From an uncultured Eubacterium sp. (GTDB lineage: Bacteria > Bacillota > Clostridia > Lachnospirales > Lachnospiraceae): a DNA stretch of 34,746 nt. The notes under the pieces are model-generated. The model had not been told where the DNA came from. It searched no databases and worked only from the letters and a program-made list of their open reading frames with translations. A program made the position numbers and the translations under genes. Within the stretch, counting starts at the first letter, position 1, and the number at the start of each line of letters is the position of its first letter. This document shows positions 550 through 28,978 of the stretch, piece after piece. The DNA is taken from assembly GCA_947385775.1 (NCBI GenBank), contig CANDMI010000039.1:1-34746 (forward strand), read 5' to 3'.

Positions 550-2724
550 TTATGCCGCGGCTTTTACGCCTGCCTTTAACGTCCCTCTTTCTTTATATGG
601 ACGAAACAGCAGATAGAGGAATGCCGCAGCAGCCACCGTCGCCGCGATTGTTCCTATGCCAAACCGCCCTTCTGTAAAAAATAAGCCAAACTGGTAAATG
701 CAAAGCGATACGACATAGGCAAGGCCGCATTGGTAGCCGATCGCAAATAAAAACCACTTGTTATTGTTCATTTCCCGTTTGATCGCACCCATTGCCGCAA
801 AGCACGGAGCGCATAATAAATTAAACACAAGGAAGGAATACGCCGCTACCGCCGTCATCGCCCCGGAAAGCGCCGACCAGATTTCCGCGCCGTCCTCCGC
901 GACCTCGGCAAATCCAAATAATATGCCAAAGGTCGCCACGACGTTTTCCTTTGCGATTAATCCGGTGACCGCCGCAACCGCCATTTTCCATTCCCCCCAT
1001 CCAAGCGGAGAAAAAACCGGCGCGATCACGCCGCCAAGCGCCGCAAGGATGCTTCTGTCAAGCTGCCCGTCTTCCAGCATCGCAAAGCTTCCATCCACCC
1101 AGCCAAAGCCCTGCAAAAACCAAAGGACGACGGTTGAAAGCAAAATAATCGTGCCCGCTTTTTTTATAAAGGAAAACCCCCTCTCCCACATGCTTCGGAG
1201 TACGTTTCCGGCAGTCGGCATATGGTATGCCGGAAGCTCCATTACAAACGGCGCAGGATCTCCCGCAAACAGTTTCGTTTTCTTTAAGATGATGCCAGAA
1301 CAGATGATCGCCGCGATCCCGACAAAATAAGCGCTCCAGGAAACCCATCCCGCGTTGCCAAAAAACGCGCCCGCAATTAAGGCAATGATCGGAAGCTTTG
1401 CTCCGCAGGGCACAAAGGTCGTAGTCATAACGGTCATTTTCCGGTCCCTGTCATTTTCAATCGTGCGCGAGGCCATGATCCCAGGCACGCCGCACCCGCT
1501 GCCAATCAGCATCGGGATAAAGGACTTGCCGGATAAGCCGAATTTACGGAAAATCCGATCCATAATAAACGCAACCCGCGCCATATAGCCGCATGATTCC
1601 AAAAAAGCCAAAAAGAAAAACAAAACAAGCATCTGCGGCACAAATCCCAAAACCGCCCCAACGCCTCCCACAATGCCATCCGCCACAAGCCCGGTAAGCC
1701 AGCCCGCGCACCCGATGGCCTCTAATCCGCCTGTAACGCCCGGTACGATCCATTCCCCGAATAAAACGTCATTCGTCCATCCGGTCAAAAAATCCCCCAC
1801 CGTCGACACCGACACATAATAGACCAAAAACATCACCGCCGCAAAGATCGGCAGCGCGGCAAAACGGTTGGTGACTACGCGGTCAATTTTATCAGACACA
1901 GACAGCGTTTGCTTTGCGCCGCCATTTACGAGACATTCCCCTATGATCGAAGAGATATATTCGTAGCGTTCATTTGTGATCACGCTTTGCGCATCGTCGT
2001 CAAAAATCTCCTCCATCCTTTGAATCTGCGCCGACACATCCGGCGTTTTCTTCAAGATCTTCTTTAACGGCACACTAATTTTTTCATCCTTTTCCAAAAG
2101 CTTAATCGCAAAAAACCGCCTTTGCTCCGGCTGCATCCCTACAAGCTCGTTTTCAACAGACTGTATGACTTCCTCGGCCTTTTTCGAAAAACAGGAAAAG
2201 GGAGAAAATTGATCCGAATCCTTTTTTCGCCCCTTTTGCCCCGCAATCGCAACTGCCCTTTGCGCCGCTTTTGAAACGCCTGTGCCTTTTAACGCAGAAA
2301 TCTTAAAAACCTCGCAGCCCAGCTTTTTACTTAATTTTTCTGTATGTATCTGATCGCCGCATTTTTCCAGCAAGTCCGCCATATTCACCGCCACCACGAC
2401 CGGGATTCCAAGCTCCAAAAGCTGCGTGGTAAGATAGAGGTTTCGTTCCATGTTTGTGCCGTCCACAATGTTTAAGATCACATCCGGACGCTGCGCGACC
2501 AGGTAATCGCGGGCGACGACCTCCTCCAATGTATAGGGAGACAACGAGTATATGCCCGGCAGATCCATAACGGTCACCTCCTTATGCCCCTTTAATCTCC
2601 CCTCCTTTTTTTCCACCGTAACCCCCGGCCAGTTTCCCACAAACTGGTTGGAGCCGGTCAACGCGTTAAAAAGCGTCGTCTTCCCGCAGTTTGGATTTCC
2701 TGCCAGTGCAATCTGAATCGCCAT
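550..2724 (-). CDS. feoB: Ferrous iron transport protein B
   Basis: FeoB is the membrane GTPase and permease that carries Fe(II) into the cytoplasm. The 724-residue product starts with a G domain: G1 GNPNCGKTT at residues 9-17, G3 DLPG at 54-57, and G4 NMAD at about 114-117. A helical linker follows, then a polytopic membrane part with the two Gate-type repeats, including the 'SGCGVPGIMASRTIEN' and 'LCAPCFAAMGAIKREM' segments. Length is normal for the family. I chose the ATG at 2724 over the in-frame ATG at 2772 because AAAGGAG lies 9-10 nt upstream of it and the protein then starts right at the G domain. Two feoA genes precede it and a Cys-rich accessory gene follows. A palindrome at 2802-2815 lies in its leader. 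Confidence 0.97.
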   Translation of the reverse strand: MAIQIALAGNPNCGKTTLFNALTGSNQFVGNWPGVTVEKKEGRLKGHKEVTVMDLPGIYSLSPYTLEEVVARDYLVAQRPDVILNIVDGTNMERNLYLTTQLLELGIPVVVAVNMADLLEKCGDQIHTEKLSKKLGCEVFKISALKGTGVSKAAQRAVAIAGQKGRKKDSDQFSPFSCFSKKAEEVIQSVENELVGMQPEQRRFFAIKLLEKDEKISVPLKKILKKTPDVSAQIQRMEEIFDDDAQSVITNERYEYISSIIGECLVNGGAKQTLSVSDKIDRVVTNRFAALPIFAAVMFLVYYVSVSTVGDFLTGWTNDVLFGEWIVPGVTGGLEAIGCAGWLTGLVADGIVGGVGAVLGFVPQMLVLFFFLAFLESCGYMARVAFIMDRIFRKFGLSGKSFIPMLIGSGCGVPGIMASRTIENDRDRKMTVMTTTFVPCGAKLPIIALIAGAFFGNAGWVSWSAYFVGIAAIICSGIILKKTKLFAGDPAPFVMELPAYHMPTAGNVLRSMWERGFSFIKKAGTIILLSTVVLWFLQGFGWVDGSFAMLEDGQLDRSILAALGGVIAPVFSPLGWGEWKMAVAAVTGLIAKENVVATFGILFGFAEVAEDGAEIWSALSGAMTAVAAYSFLVFNLLCAPCFAAMGAIKREMNNNKWFLFAIGYQCGLAYVVSLCIYQFGLFFTEGRFGIGTIAATVAAAAFLYLLFRPYKERGTLKAGVKAAA

Positions 2725-13966: not shown

Positions 13967-15124
13967 CTATTTTAATTTTCCCATATCCGTATCCTCCATA
14001 AACTGTATGCTGTTATAAAGGATCAAAATGTCATCCGCCGGATAGATTTCCAGCATTTTTCCAACCGGCGCGTTTAAATGCCTAAGATCGATCACGACGA
14101 TGCGCTTATAATGGCTTGCGAAAAAGGGCGCAAAGCAGTTGCCAAAGGAGTCCTTTACCAAAAGCAGCGTCTTTTTATCATTTTTCTCTTTTTCAGACTC
14201 TACCGTAATGTCCACGACCGCCTGGTTTCCGCCCATAAACACCTGGTATGGGTCGTCTCCCTCAAGCTTATCCATTTCATAAAAGCTTTCCGTCTGAAAT
14301 TGTCCCATATTATAATCGAGCTTTAATTTATCTGCGTCCTTTTTTTCATATAAATGAATCGTATCGGCTTTTGCCTTCGTACGCACTTTTGCGTATGTCG
14401 TGCCCAAAAACGATTCTGTGGCTGGCGTGATTGAAAACGCTTCTTTGGCAAGGCTTTGGGCATCCATCGCCTTTGCCCACTCCTGGTACGCATAATACGC
14501 CCCAAGCGTCGTCCAATGGTGGTCGGTGCGGTAATAAATGTACTCGTTTTCATGCTCCTTTAGCGCCCCCGCCACCTCGATCCGTTTTGTTTTGTCAATT
14601 TTTTCATCTACAAGCTTCCAAAAACGCTCCTCCCCGGACTCTACCGCAAAAAGCGGAAGCTTGCCCGTTAAAACGCCGCTTTTGGACGGCACAAACATTG
14701 CCTTTGCGTTCGAATGCTTGTTTAAAAAGCGCGAAACCCGGTTCAGGTTTTTTTCTATATTTTTCCAGTCAAAATCCCGCTCCTGATACTTTTCCAACAA
14801 ATACCCGTCTCTGCCAAAGTAAACGCCCTGTGCGTCTTTGCTTCCAAGCGAACGCTCCAGCCCTGTTTTTAACGCCAGGCCCTTTTCTCTGAAAGGGAAC
14901 TGCTCGCACAAATAGGTTTCAAACTTTTTTTGGAACTTTCCATTTAAAATCGTTTTTTTCTTTAATTTTGGCCGTTTGCTCAACATCCGCCGCTCACTGG
15001 CGGAATAGATATGGTCTGGCGTGGCCCAGACAAAAGCTGCGCTTCCTGCCAGCAGCAATAAGACTGCTGACAGAAAGCATATATAAGAAAAGCGTCCCGG
15101 CTTTTTTTTCTTTTCCATATCCAT
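13967..15124 (-). CDS. DHHW-family cell-surface protein (AlgX/AlgJ-like)
   Basis: A 385-residue membrane-anchored protein. Residues 13-34 form one hydrophobic segment followed by 'PDHIYSASERRMLSKRPKL', typical of DHHW proteins. The signature D201-H202-H203-W204 is present in 'RTDHHWTTLGAYYAY', and 'VKDSFGNCFAPF' (about 323-334) supplies the SGNH-like serine. Relatives act with MBOAT acyltransferases in O-acetylation of surface polysaccharides. No MBOAT gene is in this window. The ATG is 5 nt after the DUF4358 stop, with no clear ribosome site of its own, so translation is probably coupled. Substrate unknown. Confidence 0.88.
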   Translation of the reverse strand: MDMEKKKKPGRFSYICFLSAVLLLLAGSAAFVWATPDHIYSASERRMLSKRPKLKKKTILNGKFQKKFETYLCEQFPFREKGLALKTGLERSLGSKDAQGVYFGRDGYLLEKYQERDFDWKNIEKNLNRVSRFLNKHSNAKAMFVPSKSGVLTGKLPLFAVESGEERFWKLVDEKIDKTKRIEVAGALKEHENEYIYYRTDHHWTTLGAYYAYQEWAKAMDAQSLAKEAFSITPATESFLGTTYAKVRTKAKADTIHLYEKKDADKLKLDYNMGQFQTESFYEMDKLEGDDPYQVFMGGNQAVVDITVESEKEKNDKKTLLLVKDSFGNCFAPFFASHYKRIVVIDLRHLNAPVGKMLEIYPADDILILYNSIQFMEDTDMGKLK

Positions 15125-15129
15125 AGCGG

Positions 15130-15717
15130 TTATTTTAACTGCTTTTTGATCGCCTTGACCGCTTTGTTATTTTGTTTCTGATATGCTTTGATCATTTCTT
15201 CCTCGGTACCGTTTTCCTCTATCTGCTTGCTGATCTGCCCAAGGACGATAAAGCATACGTAATCCCCATTTTTATAAATTTTAGCCGCCTGTAATTTCAA
15301 CAGGTTCATTGGATAATTAAATGTGCTTTCTACTTTCTTTTTTTTGTATTTTTTTAAAGCGCTCACTATCTTCTTTTTAGAAGCCGAATCTTTTGCTTTA
15401 TAGATCGAAAGCTCATCCACCTGTACGTTGACCATTGGCCTTACCACATAAGCAGAGGAGTACAGGCTGGAGGATATCCCATAGTCACTCTCGATCTCAG
15501 CCGCCGACACTTCCGTATCCGGCACAAACTCATACACCTTCCTTACCGCTTTCGCAAGCTTTTTCGGAGACGGCTTTGCCGCCGCCTGCACGGTTACCGC
15601 CTCGTTTCCCAATAATCTTGTCCCCGCATACGGAAGCGCCTGCATCCCAATGCTTCCTACGCCAAGGGCCGCCGTTAAGATCCATGCTGTAAGCCTTGTC
15701 TTCTTTATCTTTTTCAT
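15130..15717 (-). CDS. DUF4358-type secreted protein
   Basis: A 195-residue secreted or membrane-anchored protein. It starts with a basic N-region and a hydrophobic stretch (LTAWILTAALGVGSIGMQAL), followed after 'VQAAAKPSPKKLAKAVRKVY' by an alpha/beta domain of the DUF4358 type ('SDYGISSSLYSSAYVVRPMVNVQVDELSIYKAKD', then a Lys-rich helix and 'KNGDYVCFIVLGQ'). Function is unknown; such genes are often found beside DHHW and MBOAT genes in gut Firmicutes, as here. The ATG at 15717 is preferred over one at 15756 because AGGTGG lies 5 nt upstream and the signal peptide is then normal. It is first in the seven-gene minus-strand string. I see no convincing promoter for it. Confidence 0.82.
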   Translation of the reverse strand: MKKIKKTRLTAWILTAALGVGSIGMQALPYAGTRLLGNEAVTVQAAAKPSPKKLAKAVRKVYEFVPDTEVSAAEIESDYGISSSLYSSAYVVRPMVNVQVDELSIYKAKDSASKKKIVSALKKYKKKKVESTFNYPMNLLKLQAAKIYKNGDYVCFIVLGQISKQIEENGTEEEMIKAYQKQNNKAVKAIKKQLK

Positions 15718-15784
15718 AATTTCCACCTGTTTCCTTTCTTTGCCTATTTTTTTCATACGGAACGAAATTCTTTTCTAAAATAAT

Positions 15785-17204: not shown

Positions 17205-18197
17205 TTATGAAACATTTGCAAGCGCAGCAGTAATGATCGCCATGGAATAGACCTCGGACGCGTTACAGCCCCTTGAAAGGTCGTTGATCGGGGCGTTTAA
17301 GCCAAGCAGGATCGGCCCATACGCGTCAAAATTGCCAAGGCGCTGAGCGATCTTATACCCGATATTCCCCGCGTTGATGTCCGGGAAAATAAATGTGTTC
17401 GTATGCCCCGCCACCTTGGAATCCGGGCATTTTGTGCGCGCCACGCGCATCGACACCGCCGCGTCAAACTGCAATTCCCCTTCCACCGGAAGGTCCGGAT
17501 AGAGTTCCTTTGTTTTTTGCGCCGCGTTTCGCATTTTATCTACGTCCTCGCCCGCTCCGGAGCCAAAGGTCGAATAGCTTAAAAACGCAACCTGAGGGTC
17601 AATCCCAAAAAGCTTTGCGCACTCCGCCGTTTCCACCGCGATCTCCACAAGCTCGTCCTCCGTCGGCTTAATGTTGATCGCGCAGTCGCCCATCGCCAAC
17701 ACCTCATTTTCGCCAGTCGCGGACGGACGCACCAAAATAAAGCAGGAGGATACGATCTTATGCCCCGGCTTTGTTTTTATCAATTGCAGCGCCGGGCGCA
17801 CCGTATCTGCCGTAGAATAAGTCGCGCCGCCTAGCAGAGCGTCCGCAAGCCCCATTTTTACAAGCATCGCGCCAAAATAATTGGCCTGCCTTAAGGTCTT
17901 TTCCGCCTGTTCCCTCGTAACGCCCTTGGACTTACGCAGCTCGCAGAACAGATCGATCATAGCTTCCTTATCTTCATAGTCCTCCGGGTCTAAAATCTGC
18001 GCGCCGCGGATATTAAAGCCGCTGTCCGCCGCCGCGTCATACACCTTGTCCGGATTGCCGACTAAGATCGGCTGTAAGAAATTACTTGCCAACAGCCGGG
18101 ACGCGGCCTCAAGGATGCGCGGGTCATACCCCTCCGTAAATACGATTTTTTTCGGATTCTTTTTCAAAATACCGATTAACTGCCCAAAACCAAACAT
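17205..18197 (-). CDS. pta: Phosphate acetyltransferase
   Basis: A 330-residue short-form phosphotransacetylase that interconverts acetyl-CoA plus phosphate with acetyl phosphate plus CoA, a central step of fermentation to acetate. Family marks: 'PKKIVFTEGYDPRILEAA' at the start, 'ADALLGGATYSTADTVRPALQLI', 'YSTFGSGAGEDVDKM', 'VAGHTNTFIFPDINAGNIGYKI', and 'NDLSRGCNASEVYSMAIITA' at the C-terminus. Length is normal. GAGAGGAG precedes the ATG. Acetate kinase, the usual neighbour, is not downstream (the next gene is convergent) nor upstream. Confidence 0.95.
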   Translation of the reverse strand: MFGFGQLIGILKKNPKKIVFTEGYDPRILEAASRLLASNFLQPILVGNPDKVYDAAADSGFNIRGAQILDPEDYEDKEAMIDLFCELRKSKGVTREQAEKTLRQANYFGAMLVKMGLADALLGGATYSTADTVRPALQLIKTKPGHKIVSSCFILVRPSATGENEVLAMGDCAINIKPTEDELVEIAVETAECAKLFGIDPQVAFLSYSTFGSGAGEDVDKMRNAAQKTKELYPDLPVEGELQFDAAVSMRVARTKCPDSKVAGHTNTFIFPDINAGNIGYKIAQRLGNFDAYGPILLGLNAPINDLSRGCNASEVYSMAIITAALANVS

Positions 18198-18335: not shown

Positions 18336-20201
18336 TTATTGCAAATCCTGCTTAGCCGACAGGATAAAAGAATGCGCTCCCTTTCCAAAGGAAGCCGTAA
18401 GTAAACCTCCCCGTTTTTGAAGCCCCATGTCCTCTGCCGTCACCTTCCACATTTTTCCGGCATCCAGCTGCAAGAATGTTTTTTTCACATGCAGCCTGCT
18501 GTCGGCTGTAGACGCAAAGTCATATTGGAAATCCGTCTTTTGCCCTTCGTCGTCCCATGGCAGTTTAAAATTGCCGTTCGCCTGCCGCTTTTGCGTGCGC
18601 GCCGTCACTTTCACCGTTTTTTTTGCCGGGATCGTTACGGTGACCATTGCATACACAATCCTTGTTTCTTCAAACATCATTTCAAAAATCTCTTCCAGCT
18701 GCGTAAATCCATACCGTTTTACCAAAGCGTCGTAAAACTCATCCTCCTGGCTTACCGCGGTCAATGCCTGAAAGACCGCGTCCTCTCCAAAATACTCCGG
18801 CAATTTCCCGACATACTCCCCATTATTATATGCAAATTTCATTTTCCTTGTAGCTTCCAGACAGCACAGGCGCAGCGCGTCGGCATAACGCATACTGCGC
18901 TTTTGCACCGCGCACTGGATGCCAGGCGCTTCCTCCTCGCAATCCAGGTTTGTGTAATAGCCGACCTTGGGCTCGACCTTTCCGGCTCCGGTTATGATCA
19001 GCATCGGCCTTGCGTATTCCGTCGGAGCGAAAAAACAGTAATTTTCGGCATTTGCATAATCAAAACCAAAGGTCAGCACATCCGCGCCTTCCTTAGCAAC
19101 CGTAACGCCGACCACGCCCCCGCCGCCTTCTTTTATCTGAATATCGCTAAAAAAATAAACGTCTACCGCTTTATTCCAATCCACGGCTTTTTGCAGCGCG
19201 TTTTCCTGATATTCCGACCCCGGGTCGCATAGCCTCTCGTAATCTAAAAGCGTTGCGCTCCCATCCGGTTTTCCGCCTAAAAACGCGCTGGCCCCGTCCC
19301 CGACGCCATATTCTATCTTTTTTTCTTCCCCTCCCTGCGCCTTTAATATATCTCCATCCAGACCATAGGACTGGTTTAACGCCGTTACAAATGGATACAC
19401 AAGCTGCAACGTTTTATCTTCATTGGAGTCGTTTTTTATCTGGTAGCGGTCCCAGATGTGCAGCAAGGGCTGCGTCATCCCATTTGATTCCTGGGATTCG
19501 ACTTTGCATTGCAGCCTTCGGGTCGTTTTTACATGCTGGACGTCTCCGGTGGCCGTCATTACAAGCGCTGGGCCCTCGTAGTCGTCAAGGCGCATCGGCA
19601 GGACCGGGGTTTTGTTATCTACATTATATTTATCGTCAAAAGCGCCGTCCTCTGACGCCGTCTGCCCCATCTCTAAGTCCACCGCGCCCTCTCCCGTTTC
19701 CCGCTCTTTCCCGTTTCCCGCGGACGCGGAAAGAAAAAAATCTGTCCGGCTCCGGTTCAGATTGCTGTATTTTACAATATAAAGCGAAACAAAAAGCACG
19801 ATGCTAATGCACGCCGCCACGGGAATGTATTTTAATCCTGCCTTTAATTTCTTTAACCCCCGCTGCTTCCTGCCGCAAATTTGCTTTTCCCGTTTTTCCT
19901 GCGCTTGCATTTTACGCGTCGGTTTTTGTATTTTTTTTCTCTTTTTATGCTTATCCGCATAATCCAACGCGATTTTACGCGTCAGTTCCCCGAGATATTC
20001 CCGCAGGCAGGCGGGGCGTTTTTGGGGGATGGACAGCCAGGCTGCTACAAACGCGTCGTTTACGCATCGTCCCGCCGCCGCTTCTTCCTTTAAAATCCCG
20101 AATGCGATCTTATAGCAATACGCCCCGTATTTTTGATTCGTGCGCTTTAACGCTTCTTCCTTTCTCTCTACGTACAGCTGAATGATGATCTCGTCTTCCA
20201 T
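18336..20201 (-). CDS. Sigma-70 region 2 domain fused to a membrane helix and a large outer domain
   Basis: A 621-residue protein with an unusual build. Residues 1-85 look like region 2 of a Lachnospiraceae ECF-type sigma factor ('MEDEIIIQLYVERKEEAL', 'KYGAYCYKIAFGILK', 'CVNDAFVAAWLSIPQKRP', 'GELTRKIALDYADKHKK'). There is no region 4. A very basic stretch (about 86-122) leads to one hydrophobic helix (about 124-146); roughly 475 residues follow that would lie outside the membrane and that I do not recognise ('LPMRLDDYEGPALVMTATGDV'). The reading frame is continuous. The ATG at 20201 is chosen because it matches usual sigma starts; an upstream TTG would overlap the CheC gene. It begins 7 nt after cheC. 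It could be a membrane-tethered sigma, an anti-sigma-like decoy, or a sensor that only reuses the fold. Confidence 0.7.
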   Translation of the reverse strand: MEDEIIIQLYVERKEEALKRTNQKYGAYCYKIAFGILKEEAAAGRCVNDAFVAAWLSIPQKRPACLREYLGELTRKIALDYADKHKKRKKIQKPTRKMQAQEKREKQICGRKQRGLKKLKAGLKYIPVAACISIVLFVSLYIVKYSNLNRSRTDFFLSASAGNGKERETGEGAVDLEMGQTASEDGAFDDKYNVDNKTPVLPMRLDDYEGPALVMTATGDVQHVKTTRRLQCKVESQESNGMTQPLLHIWDRYQIKNDSNEDKTLQLVYPFVTALNQSYGLDGDILKAQGGEEKKIEYGVGDGASAFLGGKPDGSATLLDYERLCDPGSEYQENALQKAVDWNKAVDVYFFSDIQIKEGGGGVVGVTVAKEGADVLTFGFDYANAENYCFFAPTEYARPMLIITGAGKVEPKVGYYTNLDCEEEAPGIQCAVQKRSMRYADALRLCCLEATRKMKFAYNNGEYVGKLPEYFGEDAVFQALTAVSQEDEFYDALVKRYGFTQLEEIFEMMFEETRIVYAMVTVTIPAKKTVKVTARTQKRQANGNFKLPWDDEGQKTDFQYDFASTADSRLHVKKTFLQLDAGKMWKVTAEDMGLQKRGGLLTASFGKGAHSFILSAKQDLQ

Positions 20202-20208
20202 AAATCGT

Positions 20209-20847
20209 CTACAGCCCAAACGCCTTTGCAAACAGCTGCACCGCAGCGGCGTCCGGCAGCATGACCACCCTGCCTAAGCCGCATGTTTCGTCTCCTTCTT
20301 TTTCCAACAGGCGAAAGCTGGTTTCCACCCAGATCGCCTTTTTTGTGTCCGTCCCCTGGTTTTGCAAAATTTCCCCAAGGCTGACTCTTTCTTTATCTAA
20401 TACAAGCATAGACGGCGACATGAATATCCGTATGCCCGTGTATTTTCCAATTGCCTTTGTGTATGCGGCCGCAAGCATATTCGCAAATTCTTTGACCGCG
20501 GAAAATGCAATCTCTTCTTCATATAGCGCGTTGCCTTCATAACGACTTTCTGTCATTTTTTCAACCACATCATAAACAAAGCTTTGTTTTAAAATGAACA
20601 ACACAGAGCCTTTCATCGGTTCTAAAAACTTCATCCAGATCCCTACGTTATCCTGCTGCATCAGCTCACGCAATACCTGGCTGGTTCGTTCCCCGACCGG
20701 GATGACCTTTGGAGTCGCTAACGCCACCCGAACACCAAGTATTCTCCCGATCGTAGCGCTTGCCATGCCTACCCCCGCATTTCCAAGCTCGTACAAAACC
20801 TCCTGCACATCCGAATCCAAGTTCCCATTTTGGTCAAATACTTCCAT
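20209..20847 (-). CDS. CheC-like phosphatase
   Basis: A 212-residue CheC/CheX/FliY-fold protein. Both pseudo-symmetric active sites are visible: E20 and N23 in 'VLYELGNAGVGMASATIG', and E120 and N123 in 'SAVKEFANMLAAAYTKAIG'. CheC proteins remove phosphate from CheY-P, so the receiver encoded directly upstream is the obvious partner. The ATG at 20847 follows GGGGG by 5 nt and is 28 nt after the receiver gene; the longer reading frame starting at 20904 would overlap that gene. No flagellar or chemotaxis genes are nearby, so the pair likely works in a different pathway. Confidence 0.85.
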   Translation of the reverse strand: MEVFDQNGNLDSDVQEVLYELGNAGVGMASATIGRILGVRVALATPKVIPVGERTSQVLRELMQQDNVGIWMKFLEPMKGSVLFILKQSFVYDVVEKMTESRYEGNALYEEEIAFSAVKEFANMLAAAYTKAIGKYTGIRIFMSPSMLVLDKERVSLGEILQNQGTDTKKAIWVETSFRLLEKEGDETCGLGRVVMLPDAAAVQLFAKAFGL

Positions 20848-20875
20848 GAAAACCCCCTTTCCTGTTGCCGTTTCT

Positions 20876-21244
20876 TTATTCGTTTTCAAGCGCCCGGTTG
20901 ACAATCTGAAGAAACTCTTTTTCTTCGAACGGCTTTACGATGAAATCCTTTGCCCCTGCCTTAAGCGCGTCCATAATGATCAAGTCCTGCCCGATGGCGG
21001 AATTGATCACGATCTTCGCCTGCGGGTTTATCTCTAAAAGCTTTTTTAAAAGCGTAAGGTCCGCGTTATCCGGAAGCGTAATGTCAAGAAGCGTAAGATC
21101 CGGCTTTTTTTCCTGAAACAGCGGGATCGCCTCCGCCGCCGTAGCCGCTTCTATAATATTGTCATACCCTCCATTTTGCAGAGCCTTTTTCGTCACTACC
21201 CGCGCAAATTTTGCATCATCCACTACCAGAATCAACTTCTCCAT
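20876..21244 (-). CDS. CheY-like stand-alone receiver
   Basis: A 122-residue receiver only. Acidic residues D9-D10, phospho-acceptor D54 in 'LTLLDITLP', S82 in place of the usual threonine ('VINSAIG'), and K104 in 'IVKPF'. GGAGGATACGGG precedes the ATG. It lies 42 nt after the GGDEF-EAL gene and before the CheC-like phosphatase. There is no cognate kinase in this operon. Phosphorylation probably controls partner binding, perhaps to the EAL protein or to the sigma-like membrane protein encoded in the same operon. Confidence 0.9.
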   Translation of the reverse strand: MEKLILVVDDAKFARVVTKKALQNGGYDNIIEAATAAEAIPLFQEKKPDLTLLDITLPDNADLTLLKKLLEINPQAKIVINSAIGQDLIIMDALKAGAKDFIVKPFEEKEFLQIVNRALENE

Positions 21245-21286: not shown

Positions 21287-23017
21287 TTACCCCTTCGCTA
21301 ACGCCTGCTCATAATCAGAAATCGGCATCGGCCTGTAAAAATAAAATCCCTGGGCAAACCTGCATCCGATCGACAGCAAAAAGTCCACCTGGTCTTTCGT
21401 CTCCACGCCCTCTACGATCACCTCCAGCCCAAGCTGTCTTGCCATATCCACTACGCACCGCAAGATCGTATTCCCGCGCAGGTCGTCCGAAGAAGGCGGC
21501 AAAAATTTTAAATCTATTTTTAATACATCCACAGGAATCTCCCGCAATGTGTTAAGCGAAGAATATCCGCTTCCAAAATCATCCATCAGCACCCGGAAAT
21601 GATTTTTTTGCAGCAGGCTTGCCAGATTGCAAAGCTGCATATTGTCCGAAATAAAGGCGCTTTCCGTCAATTCAAAGGATATCAGATCATGCGGAATGTC
21701 ATACTTTGCCACGCACGACTGTATCTGATCTAATAAATTTGGATTATATAAATCCGCCCTTGACACGTTAACGGAAATCGGATAGACCGGCTTTTTTTCA
21801 TCCAGCCATCTGCGCAGCGTTTTGCAGGTCGCTTCCAAGATAAACGCGTCCAGCTCTGAGATAAACCCGTTTTTTTCAAACACCGGGACGAAATCCCCTG
21901 GCGAAATGACCCCTTTTTGCGGATGAATCCAGCGCACAAGCGCCTCCGCTCCAATGATCTTTCCGGTATCCATCTCACATTTTGGCTGCAAATAAACCTT
22001 AAACTGCTCTGTGCCCAAGGCGTGCTTCATTTCGGAAAGGATCTCCTTTTCCGCGGCTTCTTTTTTCTGGATCTTTTCGTCATAATACGCCACATTGCTT
22101 AAATAGCTGTTTTTCACAGTCTGCTGGGCGGTCACCGCCCGATCCATCAGCGTAATGACAGGCGTACGGCCTTCCTGGTCCTCTTCGTCTGTCACATAGA
22201 TCCCAAACGACATCACCATTTCAAACCGGATCGGATACCCCTTTAGGGAAGCCTGCATAAAGCTGACTAATTCTTGTATGTCCTCTTTATTATATTCAAT
22301 GCAGACGCAAAACATATCGGAAGAAACCCTGCAATACGTGCTCTCTCCCTGCGCCGGCCCTGCCCACTCCTGGATCTTTACGCCAATATAGCGAAGGATA
22401 TTGTCGCCCTCCTTCGTCCCGTATATTTCATTGATGATCCGAAATTTATTGATATCCATACGGATAACCGCAAACCGCATCCCAGGGTGGGACTGGATCA
22501 ACTCCTCCGTCATCTGGATAAAGCTGTCAAGGTTTGGCATATGCGTCAGCGGGTCTTTAGCAAGCAGGAACTTCATTTTGCGTATCGTTTCCAATTCCTT
22601 TTCGGCATTTGTAAATGTGATCAACACCCGTTCTTTATGTCCCTTAGCATCCCCATAGCACACTAAGCTGACGCGGAACCACTCATACGTATGCGCCTTT
22701 ACATAAAATCTTGCGTCGACTCTGCGGGAATCCCCCGCCTTTAGATTTGAAAAATCAAAAAAGCTTTTTAAAAGCGGAATATCTTCTTTTAAAACCACGC
22801 GATGAAAATCCGCGCTCGTCTTAAGCCTTTTGCTCCAGTTCCCATAGACATGCCTGCGCTGCGCCGGGTCGACATAGCACTGTTTTGTCTTTAGATTGTA
22901 TTCCACGATAAAAGAACGTGTGTTTTCCAAAATCCGGCTGTCCCTTAACAGCTCTTCTTCCTTCCAGCTTTCCCGCTGATTCGATGTATTTTCCAAGTTG
23001 CCCTGCTCATCCCCCAT
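21287..23017 (-). CDS. PAS-GGDEF(degenerate)-EAL c-di-GMP phosphodiesterase
   Basis: A 576-residue soluble protein. A PAS-like sensor domain (about 20-150) is followed by a GGDEF-fold domain whose signature is degraded to SSDMF ('CRVSSDMFCVCIEY'), so cyclase activity is unlikely. The EAL domain keeps the catalytic residues: EALVRW, 'SVNVSRADL', 'FELTES', 'DDFGSGYSS', 'LKIDLKF', 'EGVET' and 'QGFYFYRPM'. It should hydrolyse cyclic di-GMP, perhaps tuned by the PAS domain or by nucleotide bound to the inactive GGDEF domain. The ATG at 23017 follows AGGAGGAGCCGGC, a better start than the one seven codons earlier. It is the first gene of a four-gene operon behind a consensus promoter. Confidence 0.92.
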   Translation of the reverse strand: MGDEQGNLENTSNQRESWKEEELLRDSRILENTRSFIVEYNLKTKQCYVDPAQRRHVYGNWSKRLKTSADFHRVVLKEDIPLLKSFFDFSNLKAGDSRRVDARFYVKAHTYEWFRVSLVCYGDAKGHKERVLITFTNAEKELETIRKMKFLLAKDPLTHMPNLDSFIQMTEELIQSHPGMRFAVIRMDINKFRIINEIYGTKEGDNILRYIGVKIQEWAGPAQGESTYCRVSSDMFCVCIEYNKEDIQELVSFMQASLKGYPIRFEMVMSFGIYVTDEEDQEGRTPVITLMDRAVTAQQTVKNSYLSNVAYYDEKIQKKEAAEKEILSEMKHALGTEQFKVYLQPKCEMDTGKIIGAEALVRWIHPQKGVISPGDFVPVFEKNGFISELDAFILEATCKTLRRWLDEKKPVYPISVNVSRADLYNPNLLDQIQSCVAKYDIPHDLISFELTESAFISDNMQLCNLASLLQKNHFRVLMDDFGSGYSSLNTLREIPVDVLKIDLKFLPPSSDDLRGNTILRCVVDMARQLGLEVIVEGVETKDQVDFLLSIGCRFAQGFYFYRPMPISDYEQALAKG

Positions 23018-23084
23018 GCCGGCTCCTCCTGCTTGCATTTTGCGTAATTTTGCTTATTCTATCTTGAACTTCAACTGATATTTC

Positions 23085-23113
23085 ATTGTAGCATTTGGCT
23101 GTATCCTTGTCAA
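23085..23113 (-). promoter_or_regulatory. Consensus promoter of the EAL-CheY-CheC-sigma-like operon
   Basis: Minus strand TTGACA (23108-23113), 17-nt spacer, TACAAT (23085-23090). The -35 abuts the stop codon of the glycosylase gene at 23114. A strong housekeeping promoter implies constant expression of the signalling operon unless repressed. Confidence 0.8.
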
Positions 23114-27906: not shown

Positions 27907-28090
27907 TAAAAATATCTATTGGGAAACCATCCGGCATAATACTCTGTATTTGGTATTCATACAATCAATGTTATTCACTCTGAATTATATTCGTGCAGAT
28001 TTTAAAACAGTCTATATATTTGTGGGCAGTCTATTTTTATTCCTATAGACAAAAAGAATGAATGAAAATGCTGAAACGGTAAATATTCCG

Positions 28091-28119
28091 TTTTCAAAAG
28101 GCATTGTTTCATGTATAAT
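28091..28119 (+). promoter_or_regulatory. Possible promoter of the Rpn-type gene
   Basis: Perfect -10 TATAAT (28114-28119) with a weak -35 TTTTCA (28091-28096) at 17 nt. AAACGG (28074-28079) and CCGTTT (28088-28093) form an inverted repeat across the -35. If right, translation cannot start at the upstream ATG at 28058. Confidence 0.5.
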
Positions 28120-28144
28120 GAAAACAGCGAAAGAAGGTGGTATT

Positions 28145-28978
28145 TTGAGTGCAACAGTACAGACACATCAACAAGATTTAGAACGTCTGAAATCACTCCG
28201 ATATATAGATGATGATTTTATGACGGTCTGCCTTGCAGATAACTATGAAGGCGTAGAACTGATGCTTCGGATCATCTTAGGACGGGAGGATATCACAATT
28301 AAGGCGATTCGCACACAGGAACTGTTAAAGAACCTACAGGGGCGATCCGTTATATTAGACGTTCATGCAATTGACAGCGCCAAGAAAGAGTTTGATGTAG
28401 AAATTCAACGAACAGACGAAGGTGCAGACGCAAAAAGAGCAAGGCATAACAGCAGCCTGTTAGATGCGCATATCTTAAAACCCGGAGATGATACAAAAGA
28501 TATTCCCGACAGTTATGTGATTTTTATTACGGAAAATGATGTAATGAAAGGAAATCAGCCGATATATCCAGTGGAGAGATATGTCACTATTGGAGAAAAT
28601 AAAGTATTGTTTGATGACGGTTCGCATATTATATATGTGAATGGGAAGTACAGAGGCGATGATGAAATCGGAAAGCTAATGCACGATTTTTCCTGCACGG
28701 ATCCCGATGATATGAACTATGAAGCGCTCGCAAAAAAGGCAAGGTATTACAAGCAGGACGAGAAAGGGGTGGCTGCTATGTGTAAAATTATGGAAGATAT
28801 GAGAAACGAAGCGGCAAGAGAAGCGGCGCAAAAGGCAGAATTAAAAAGCGCAAGAGAAACCGCGGAAAGATTGATAAAAAAGGGAAAAATGACGCTTGAA
28901 GAAATCGCGGAGTGTGTTCCTCTATTATCACTTGATGAAGTAAAAGAAATTGAAATGAAGGTTATGCAGTTAGCGTAA
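28145..28978 (+). CDS. Rpn-family PD-(D/E)XK nuclease / putative transposase
   Basis: A 277-residue protein of the Rpn / PD-(D/E)XK transposase-like family common in clostridial genomes. It has 'FMTVCLADNYEGVELMLRIILGRED', the nuclease core 'RSVILDVHAIDSAKKEFDVEIQR' (Asp, then Glu-x-Gln), 'KRARHNSSLLDAHILKPGDD' and 'SYVIFITENDVM'. The C-terminal third is helical and charged. Relatives are linked to recombination-promoting DNA cleavage, although many copies may be domesticated. I prefer the TTG at 28145, with AGAAGGTGG 4 nt upstream and a TATAAT 25 nt upstream, to the ATG at 28058. It is a lone plus-strand gene within minus-strand operons. No terminal repeats were seen. Confidence 0.8.
   Translation: MSATVQTHQQDLERLKSLRYIDDDFMTVCLADNYEGVELMLRIILGREDITIKAIRTQELLKNLQGRSVILDVHAIDSAKKEFDVEIQRTDEGADAKRARHNSSLLDAHILKPGDDTKDIPDSYVIFITENDVMKGNQPIYPVERYVTIGENKVLFDDGSHIIYVNGKYRGDDEIGKLMHDFSCTDPDDMNYEALAKKARYYKQDEKGVAAMCKIMEDMRNEAAREAAQKAELKSARETAERLIKKGKMTLEEIAECVPLLSLDEVKEIEMKVMQLA

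Follow-up and report, generated by a model that had tools for sequence, protein, structure and literature searches.

What kind of protein begins like an ECF-type sigma factor and continues, in the same frame, into a membrane helix and a large outer domain? The question is raised by a gene in a 34,746-nucleotide stretch of contig CANDMI010000039.1 (assembly GCA_947385775.1, from an uncultured Eubacterium sp. of the Lachnospiraceae), hereafter the window. The gene runs for 621 codons without interruption, as the original prediction had stated; no strand was named there, and the frame proves to be a minus-strand one, its ATG at 20201 and its stop at 18336-18338. It encodes in order ECF sigma region 2, a basic linker, one membrane helix and about 471 outer residues, with region 4 absent. 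Comparison with relatives makes it probable that an operon for an ECF sigma factor and a membrane anti-sigma-like protein collapsed here into one gene, with loss of sigma function and retention of the outer domain. The gene and its parts are:

18336..20201, minus strand: fusion gene, a 621-codon open frame in a slot that holds two genes in relatives.
19938..20201, minus strand: residues 1-88, of ECF sigma region 2 origin (BLASTP, NCBIfam, identity 0.48-0.53 to ten relatives).
20076..20081, minus strand: residues 41-42, AA in place of the ED of a DAED-type motif (region 2.2), ED being present in 10/10 relatives.
19953..19976, minus strand: residues 76-83, KIALDYAD where the alignment with ten relatives has an invariant NLSLDRYR.
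19830..19937, minus strand: residues 89-124, basic linker.
19752..19829, minus strand: residues 125-150, the membrane helix together with its end, a segment that comes from the anti-sigma-like partner (hydropathy, sequence likeness).
18339..19751, minus strand: residues 151-621, outer domain, matched across the genus and changing at a normal rate.

The ECF-type start that had been proposed was supported by two kinds of search. NCBIfam sigma-70 models matched at most the first 136 residues; the best E was 4.6e-6, for residues 2-105, and all scores of the fusion protein lay under the curated cut-offs. BLASTP of residues 1-88 against the Eubacterium plexicaudatum sigma factor gave 53% over 80 residues (E 3e-30, as a single comparison). 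Pfam listed nothing for the full fusion protein; with residues 1-129 alone, Sigma70_r2 reached a sub-threshold 12.9 bits (cut-off 24). In the sigma factors of two relatives run alongside, region 2 scored 33.2 and 30.9 bits and region 4 scored 33.9 and 32 bits. In a region 2 tree that also held three paralogs from the window's genome and one other-genus sigma factor, all of which fell apart from the window sequence, the window grouped with the genus orthologs (split support 97; other nodes 11-84). The predicted lack of region 4 was confirmed: the sigma4 segments of ten relatives, searched against the window by tblastn, gave a best E of 0.15 with no match inside the gene, and Pfam found no region 4 match in the fusion.

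The remaining parts of the predicted layout were likewise recovered. Residues 87-128 contain 17 K/R and 2 D/E, in keeping with the basic stretch, and the single membrane helix coincides with the highest 19-residue hydropathy window (residues 125-143), no window starting outside residues 116-149 exceeding 1.4. The helix segment reads KYIPVAACISIV in the fusion and KYLPVAACLCIV in relatives. Shuffle tests of linker parentage, against the sigma tail on one side and the anti-sigma N-terminus on the other, were not clear-cut for residues 89-108 and 100-122; residues 112-128 leaned to the anti-sigma side, with the score reached in 2 of 300 shuffles. Past the helix lie about 471 residues, close to the 475 first claimed, and each of the 13 genus genomes, with the window's own among them, contains a match to residues 150-621. 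Pfam searches with 11 outer-domain members returned only single weak matches, all above E 0.02, and no solved relative of the domain appeared up to E 5.

The origin of this layout is visible in the same slot of other genomes of the genus, where 11 of 12 relatives have one gene for an ECF sigma factor of full length, with both region 2 and region 4, and another for an anti-sigma-like membrane protein; in the twelfth (G008), the contig starts inside the outer-domain gene. The relatives' sigma orthologs are 185-186 residues long and 71-87% identical to the query sigma factor, the query itself set aside. In all ten genus pairs with both ends placed, the sigma stop overlaps the partner's start by 4 nt; of the pairs measured alongside, one from another genus had a 29-nt gap, and one start was not placed. 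From its position, this overlap and its topology, we infer that the second gene encodes an anti-sigma factor. The membrane helix and outer domain of this partner are present in the fusion and, because relatives hold two genes in the same slot, the window gene is read as an in-frame collapse of that pair. No other ortholog of the genus sigma factor was found elsewhere in the window's genome, its full-length relatives there being only 46% and 43% identical. The fusion is known from one assembly of the species (152 contigs, 96% complete), and at that completeness a missed sigma copy is possible but unlikely.

None of the 11 assessable genus relatives shares the fused architecture, which rules out the fusion as a conserved architecture. 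Thus, the original prediction stands for the domain layout and not for its functional readings as a conserved system: as far as could be checked, homologues with the same layout were lacking and the two halves were separate, and a tethered sigma factor, a sigma mimic or a sensor as an established layout found no support. Wider searches gave a similar picture. Among 397 genomes, five other-genus matches to the outer domain were found, four of them with a separate adjoining sigma open frame. Of these five, the outer-domain relative at L067 (genome G063; 1081-2721, plus strand) is the sole one without a sigma open frame in the fetched stretch. A further 392 genomes added two matches: L074 has the split arrangement, and L075 resembles a chance hit on a different gene. 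A contig scan with the single fusion protein as query found no relative, and a scan with an alignment as query found 12 loci and no genome beyond the 12 relatives.

The features on either side of the fusion are:

17205..18197, minus strand: downstream syntenic gene, phosphate acetyltransferase-like by reading of the protein, adjoining the outer-domain gene in 12/12 relatives.
20202..20208, minus strand: 7-nt gap between the stop of the cheC-like gene and the start of the fusion gene.
20209..20859, minus strand: CheC/CheX-like gene directly upstream (Pfam CheX, E 3.7e-8).
20876..21244, minus strand: CheY-like receiver gene (Pfam Response_reg, E 1.6e-22).
21287..23038, minus strand: GGDEF-EAL gene (Pfam EAL, E 7.9e-66; GGDEF, E 2.5e-17).
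23085..23113, minus strand: weak sigma-70-type promoter-like site ahead of the GGDEF-EAL gene (11/12 positions).

The downstream gene is common to all 12 relatives; on the upstream side, which 11 of the stretches cover, the CheY and GGDEF-EAL genes occur in 7 and a CheC-like gene in 4. The promoter scan of the region returned 7 sites, with 6.5 expected in shuffles. Three further observations concern the surroundings. A DUF4358 protein (15130-15756, minus strand; Pfam E 1.4e-18) lies in the window beside a gene at 13967-15124, and relatives of both genes adjoin the slot in L029 and L030. A 306-aa protein (28058-28978, plus strand), possibly of a mobile-element-related family, is 88% identical over 97 residues to a piece near the slot in L023. 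Elsewhere in the window's genome, on contig C94, there is a second region-2-only frame of 121 aa (L035:2866-3231, minus strand), in which region 2 is intact to KLTRN and is followed by an unrelated tail; neither region 4 nor a membrane partner was found in the 2.9 kb translated past the frame, which is probably another truncated ECF sigma gene.

Parts of both ancestral genes and of the DNA ahead of them are missing from the window. Besides region 4, the partner's cytoplasmic GERLF-type motif is gone: tblastn of the first 60 residues of ten relatives gave a best E of 0.30 in the window, and inside the fusion gene just an 18-residue match at E 4.0. Between the longest upstream-entering open frame and the sigma start, 11 relatives have 35-273 nt, compared with 7 nt between the cheC-like stop and the fusion start in the window; the upstream frame is a CheC-like gene in three relatives (107, 172 and 273 nt) and a putative gene in the others. 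Within 300 nt upstream, 7 of 11 relatives have an ECF-promoter-like pattern (GYRAC, 14-18 nt, CGT; shuffle mean 0.32, maximum 3 in 1000), and 6 of 11 have a stricter form (shuffle mean 0.08, maximum 2); the pattern was picked after inspecting the same sequences and is absent in four relatives. Neither form occurs upstream of the window's fusion gene. An internal start that would bypass the sigma part is weakly disfavoured: none of the five in-frame ATG, GTG or TTG codons in the first 170 has a Shine-Dalgarno match of more than 3 bases, a weak argument because 7 of 17 reference genes likewise show none with the starts used.

What remains of region 2 is worn. The window breaks 22 of the 57 residues that are invariant in ten relatives, compared with 0-2 broken of 35-37 when each relative's region 2 was put to the same test. 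The acidic motif of region 2.2, [NDS][EDG]ED in 10/10 relatives, is EEAA in the window if, as we read the alignment, it corresponds to residues 39-42. According to two reviews, the acidic DAED motif contacts beta-prime and is required for holoenzyme (PMC8999054, PMC8103513). The changes include E41A, D42A, E45R, T50A, W51F and K53A. A block at residues 76-83, which we take to be region 2.4, carries N76K, L77I, S78A, R81Y, Y82A and R83D. Breakage is uneven, the first 40 residues being better kept (5/27 invariant residues broken versus 17/30 in the remainder; p 0.006). Codon use in region 2 is gene-like, while that of the linker is not distinctive, and the broken invariant sites are slightly more conservative than in a neutral simulation (91 of 2,000 runs reach the observed value). 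At variable region 2 sites, novel residues (11/31) are about as frequent as broken invariant sites, as expected of relaxed constraint. Together, the better-kept first 40 residues, the gene-like codons and the conservative bias suggest that region 2 may retain some function.

The two halves of the protein have changed at different rates. For the outer part, mean identity was 0.40 between the window and ten relatives and 0.44 among the relatives themselves; for region 2, the corresponding values were 0.50 and 0.85. The tree of the outer part, several nodes of which are weak, gave the window a terminal branch of 1.106 (0.269-0.966 in relatives), and with region 2 branches fitted on the same topology it was 1.77, compared with 0.024-0.227. 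Of the invariant residues of the outer part, 13/85 were broken in a raw count and 4/76 in a comparable one (relatives, 0-8 of 72-80), nine of the 13 being gaps ahead of the row cut: five from the missing N-terminus and four over a KYLP stretch that is KYIP in the window. Of five neighbour genes, three were within range and two mildly fast in the window: the GGDEF-EAL gene, with an identity of 0.691 (lowest per-relative mean 0.713), and an aminotransferase-like gene, with 0.737 (0.752). With neighbours mildly fast or not fast at all and the outer part normal, the strong speed-up is specific to region 2. Synonymous sites between the species were saturated and therefore dN/dS was not usable.

At the level of sequence, these comparisons demonstrate that the pair collapsed, that parts of it are missing, that the outer domain was kept and that region 2 is worn. 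We propose that the two-gene operon became a single frame. Region 2 now continues in frame into the helix and outer domain of the former partner, and neither region 4 of the sigma factor nor the partner's N-terminal motif on the cytoplasmic side has been kept. The product is predicted to be a single-pass membrane protein with its N-terminus inside and its C-terminus outside, probably produced together with the GGDEF-EAL, cheY-like and cheC-like genes, and it would no longer direct RNA polymerase. The outer domain may retain an ancestral envelope-facing task, whereas the sigma2 remnant and basic linker would serve mainly as a cytoplasmic anchor that sets the topology. The locus suggests that an outer domain can outlive its adjoining sigma factor and may thus have a task of its own, and the comparison makes the role of the domain without sigma testable. 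It is also a well-resolved example of two ECF signalling genes collapsing into one, eleven close relatives still having both genes in this slot. Sigma annotations based on region 2 alone may name remnants.

Several other histories could have produced this gene. A false join of two genes during assembly might be suspected in a 152-contig genome known from a single assembly, but this explanation is highly improbable: syntenic genes lie on both flanks, there are no N bases, the joint is in frame, and a chimera of relatives would bear a conserved region 2 rather than one of 0.50 identity. The whole gene could instead have become a pseudogene so recently that no stops have appeared in it, with the outer domain unused as well. 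Consistent with this, the intergenic stretch is gone and the start lacks a Shine-Dalgarno match, though the same holds for 7 of 17 reference genes with their starts used. However, all 621 codons are free of stops, and the outer part, with 4/76 breaks, stays inside the relatives' range over a period long enough for strong divergence of region 2, so that decay of the entire gene is unlikely.

Two readings would leave region 2 at work. If cleavage in the membrane freed it to work at promoters, either by itself or together with region 4 supplied by another protein, the gene would encode a tethered sigma factor. There are precedents, IutY having the same order of sigma, helix and outer domain (PMC5411451) and SigO-RsoA having sigma2 and sigma4 on separate proteins (PMC8103513). 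Yet the window protein lacks region 4, has AA for the ED pair, and is altered non-conservatively or in charge at N76, R81, Y82 and R83 (4/8 of residues 76-83), besides L77I and S78A, and its layout appears in no relative examined; we consider this reading distinctly improbable. Alternatively, the sigma2 part could have been exapted to bind a new cytoplasmic partner, making the fusion a one-protein transmembrane signalling device; it might, for example, be a decoy that an anti-sigma factor binds, in the manner of the sigma mimic PhyR, or bind a neighbouring Che protein. Region 2 is fast yet better kept in its first helix region, its codons are gene-like with a weak conservative bias, and PhyR is a precedent for sigma-like mimics (PMC4598750). 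Against this, invariant residues are broken (22/57) about as often as novel ones appear at variable sites (11/31), as under relaxed constraint, and exaptation seems rather doubtful. More generally, it is a tentative possibility that a sigma/anti-sigma pair fused by deletion has become a fast-evolving, non-sigma signalling protein with the sigma part as its cytoplasmic half. Collapse with loss of sigma function and retention of the outer domain remains our preferred account.

How does such a remnant compare with known systems? With the ECF sigma/anti-sigma-like pair of its own genus, for example in E. plexicaudatum ASF492 (L021, identical to L055), the fusion shares its slot, region 2, helix and outer domain; the pair differs in having two genes, a sigma factor with region 4 and a partner with a cytoplasmic GERLF-type motif, neither of which the fusion retains. 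RsoA of Bacillus subtilis has a sigma2 domain but no sigma4 and works with the sigma4 protein SigO (PMC8103513); the window protein also has sigma2 without sigma4, but no SigO-like partner is found among the sigma homologues of its genome. PhyR contains a domain that resembles sigma without functioning as one (PMC4598750, PMC8103513), but it differs in combining sigma2-like and sigma4-like parts with a receiver domain, and its description includes neither a membrane helix nor an outer domain. IutY of Pseudomonas putida (ECF243) is an active sigma factor that Prc and RseP release; a single polypeptide comprises its sigma part, one transmembrane segment and a domain outside (PMC5411451). The fusion, too, combines the two partners in a single chain, on either side of a membrane helix, as in hybrids of the IutY kind, but it has neither region 4 nor the sigma-typical residues, leaving its sigma domain incomplete. 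ECF48, ECF52, ECF53 and ECF36 are sigma factors fused to anti-sigma-like membrane parts and awaiting proteolysis, according to PMC8999054; these are ECF sigma factors, whereas the window fusion has a worn region 2 alone. Among the titles and abstracts listed in literature searches, which covered few subscription papers, we found no report of a region-2-only sigma factor fused to its own anti-sigma factor. Because it shares the fusion but fails the tested sigma features, the window gene is best regarded as a degenerate variant, rather than a member, of the sigma/anti-sigma hybrids.
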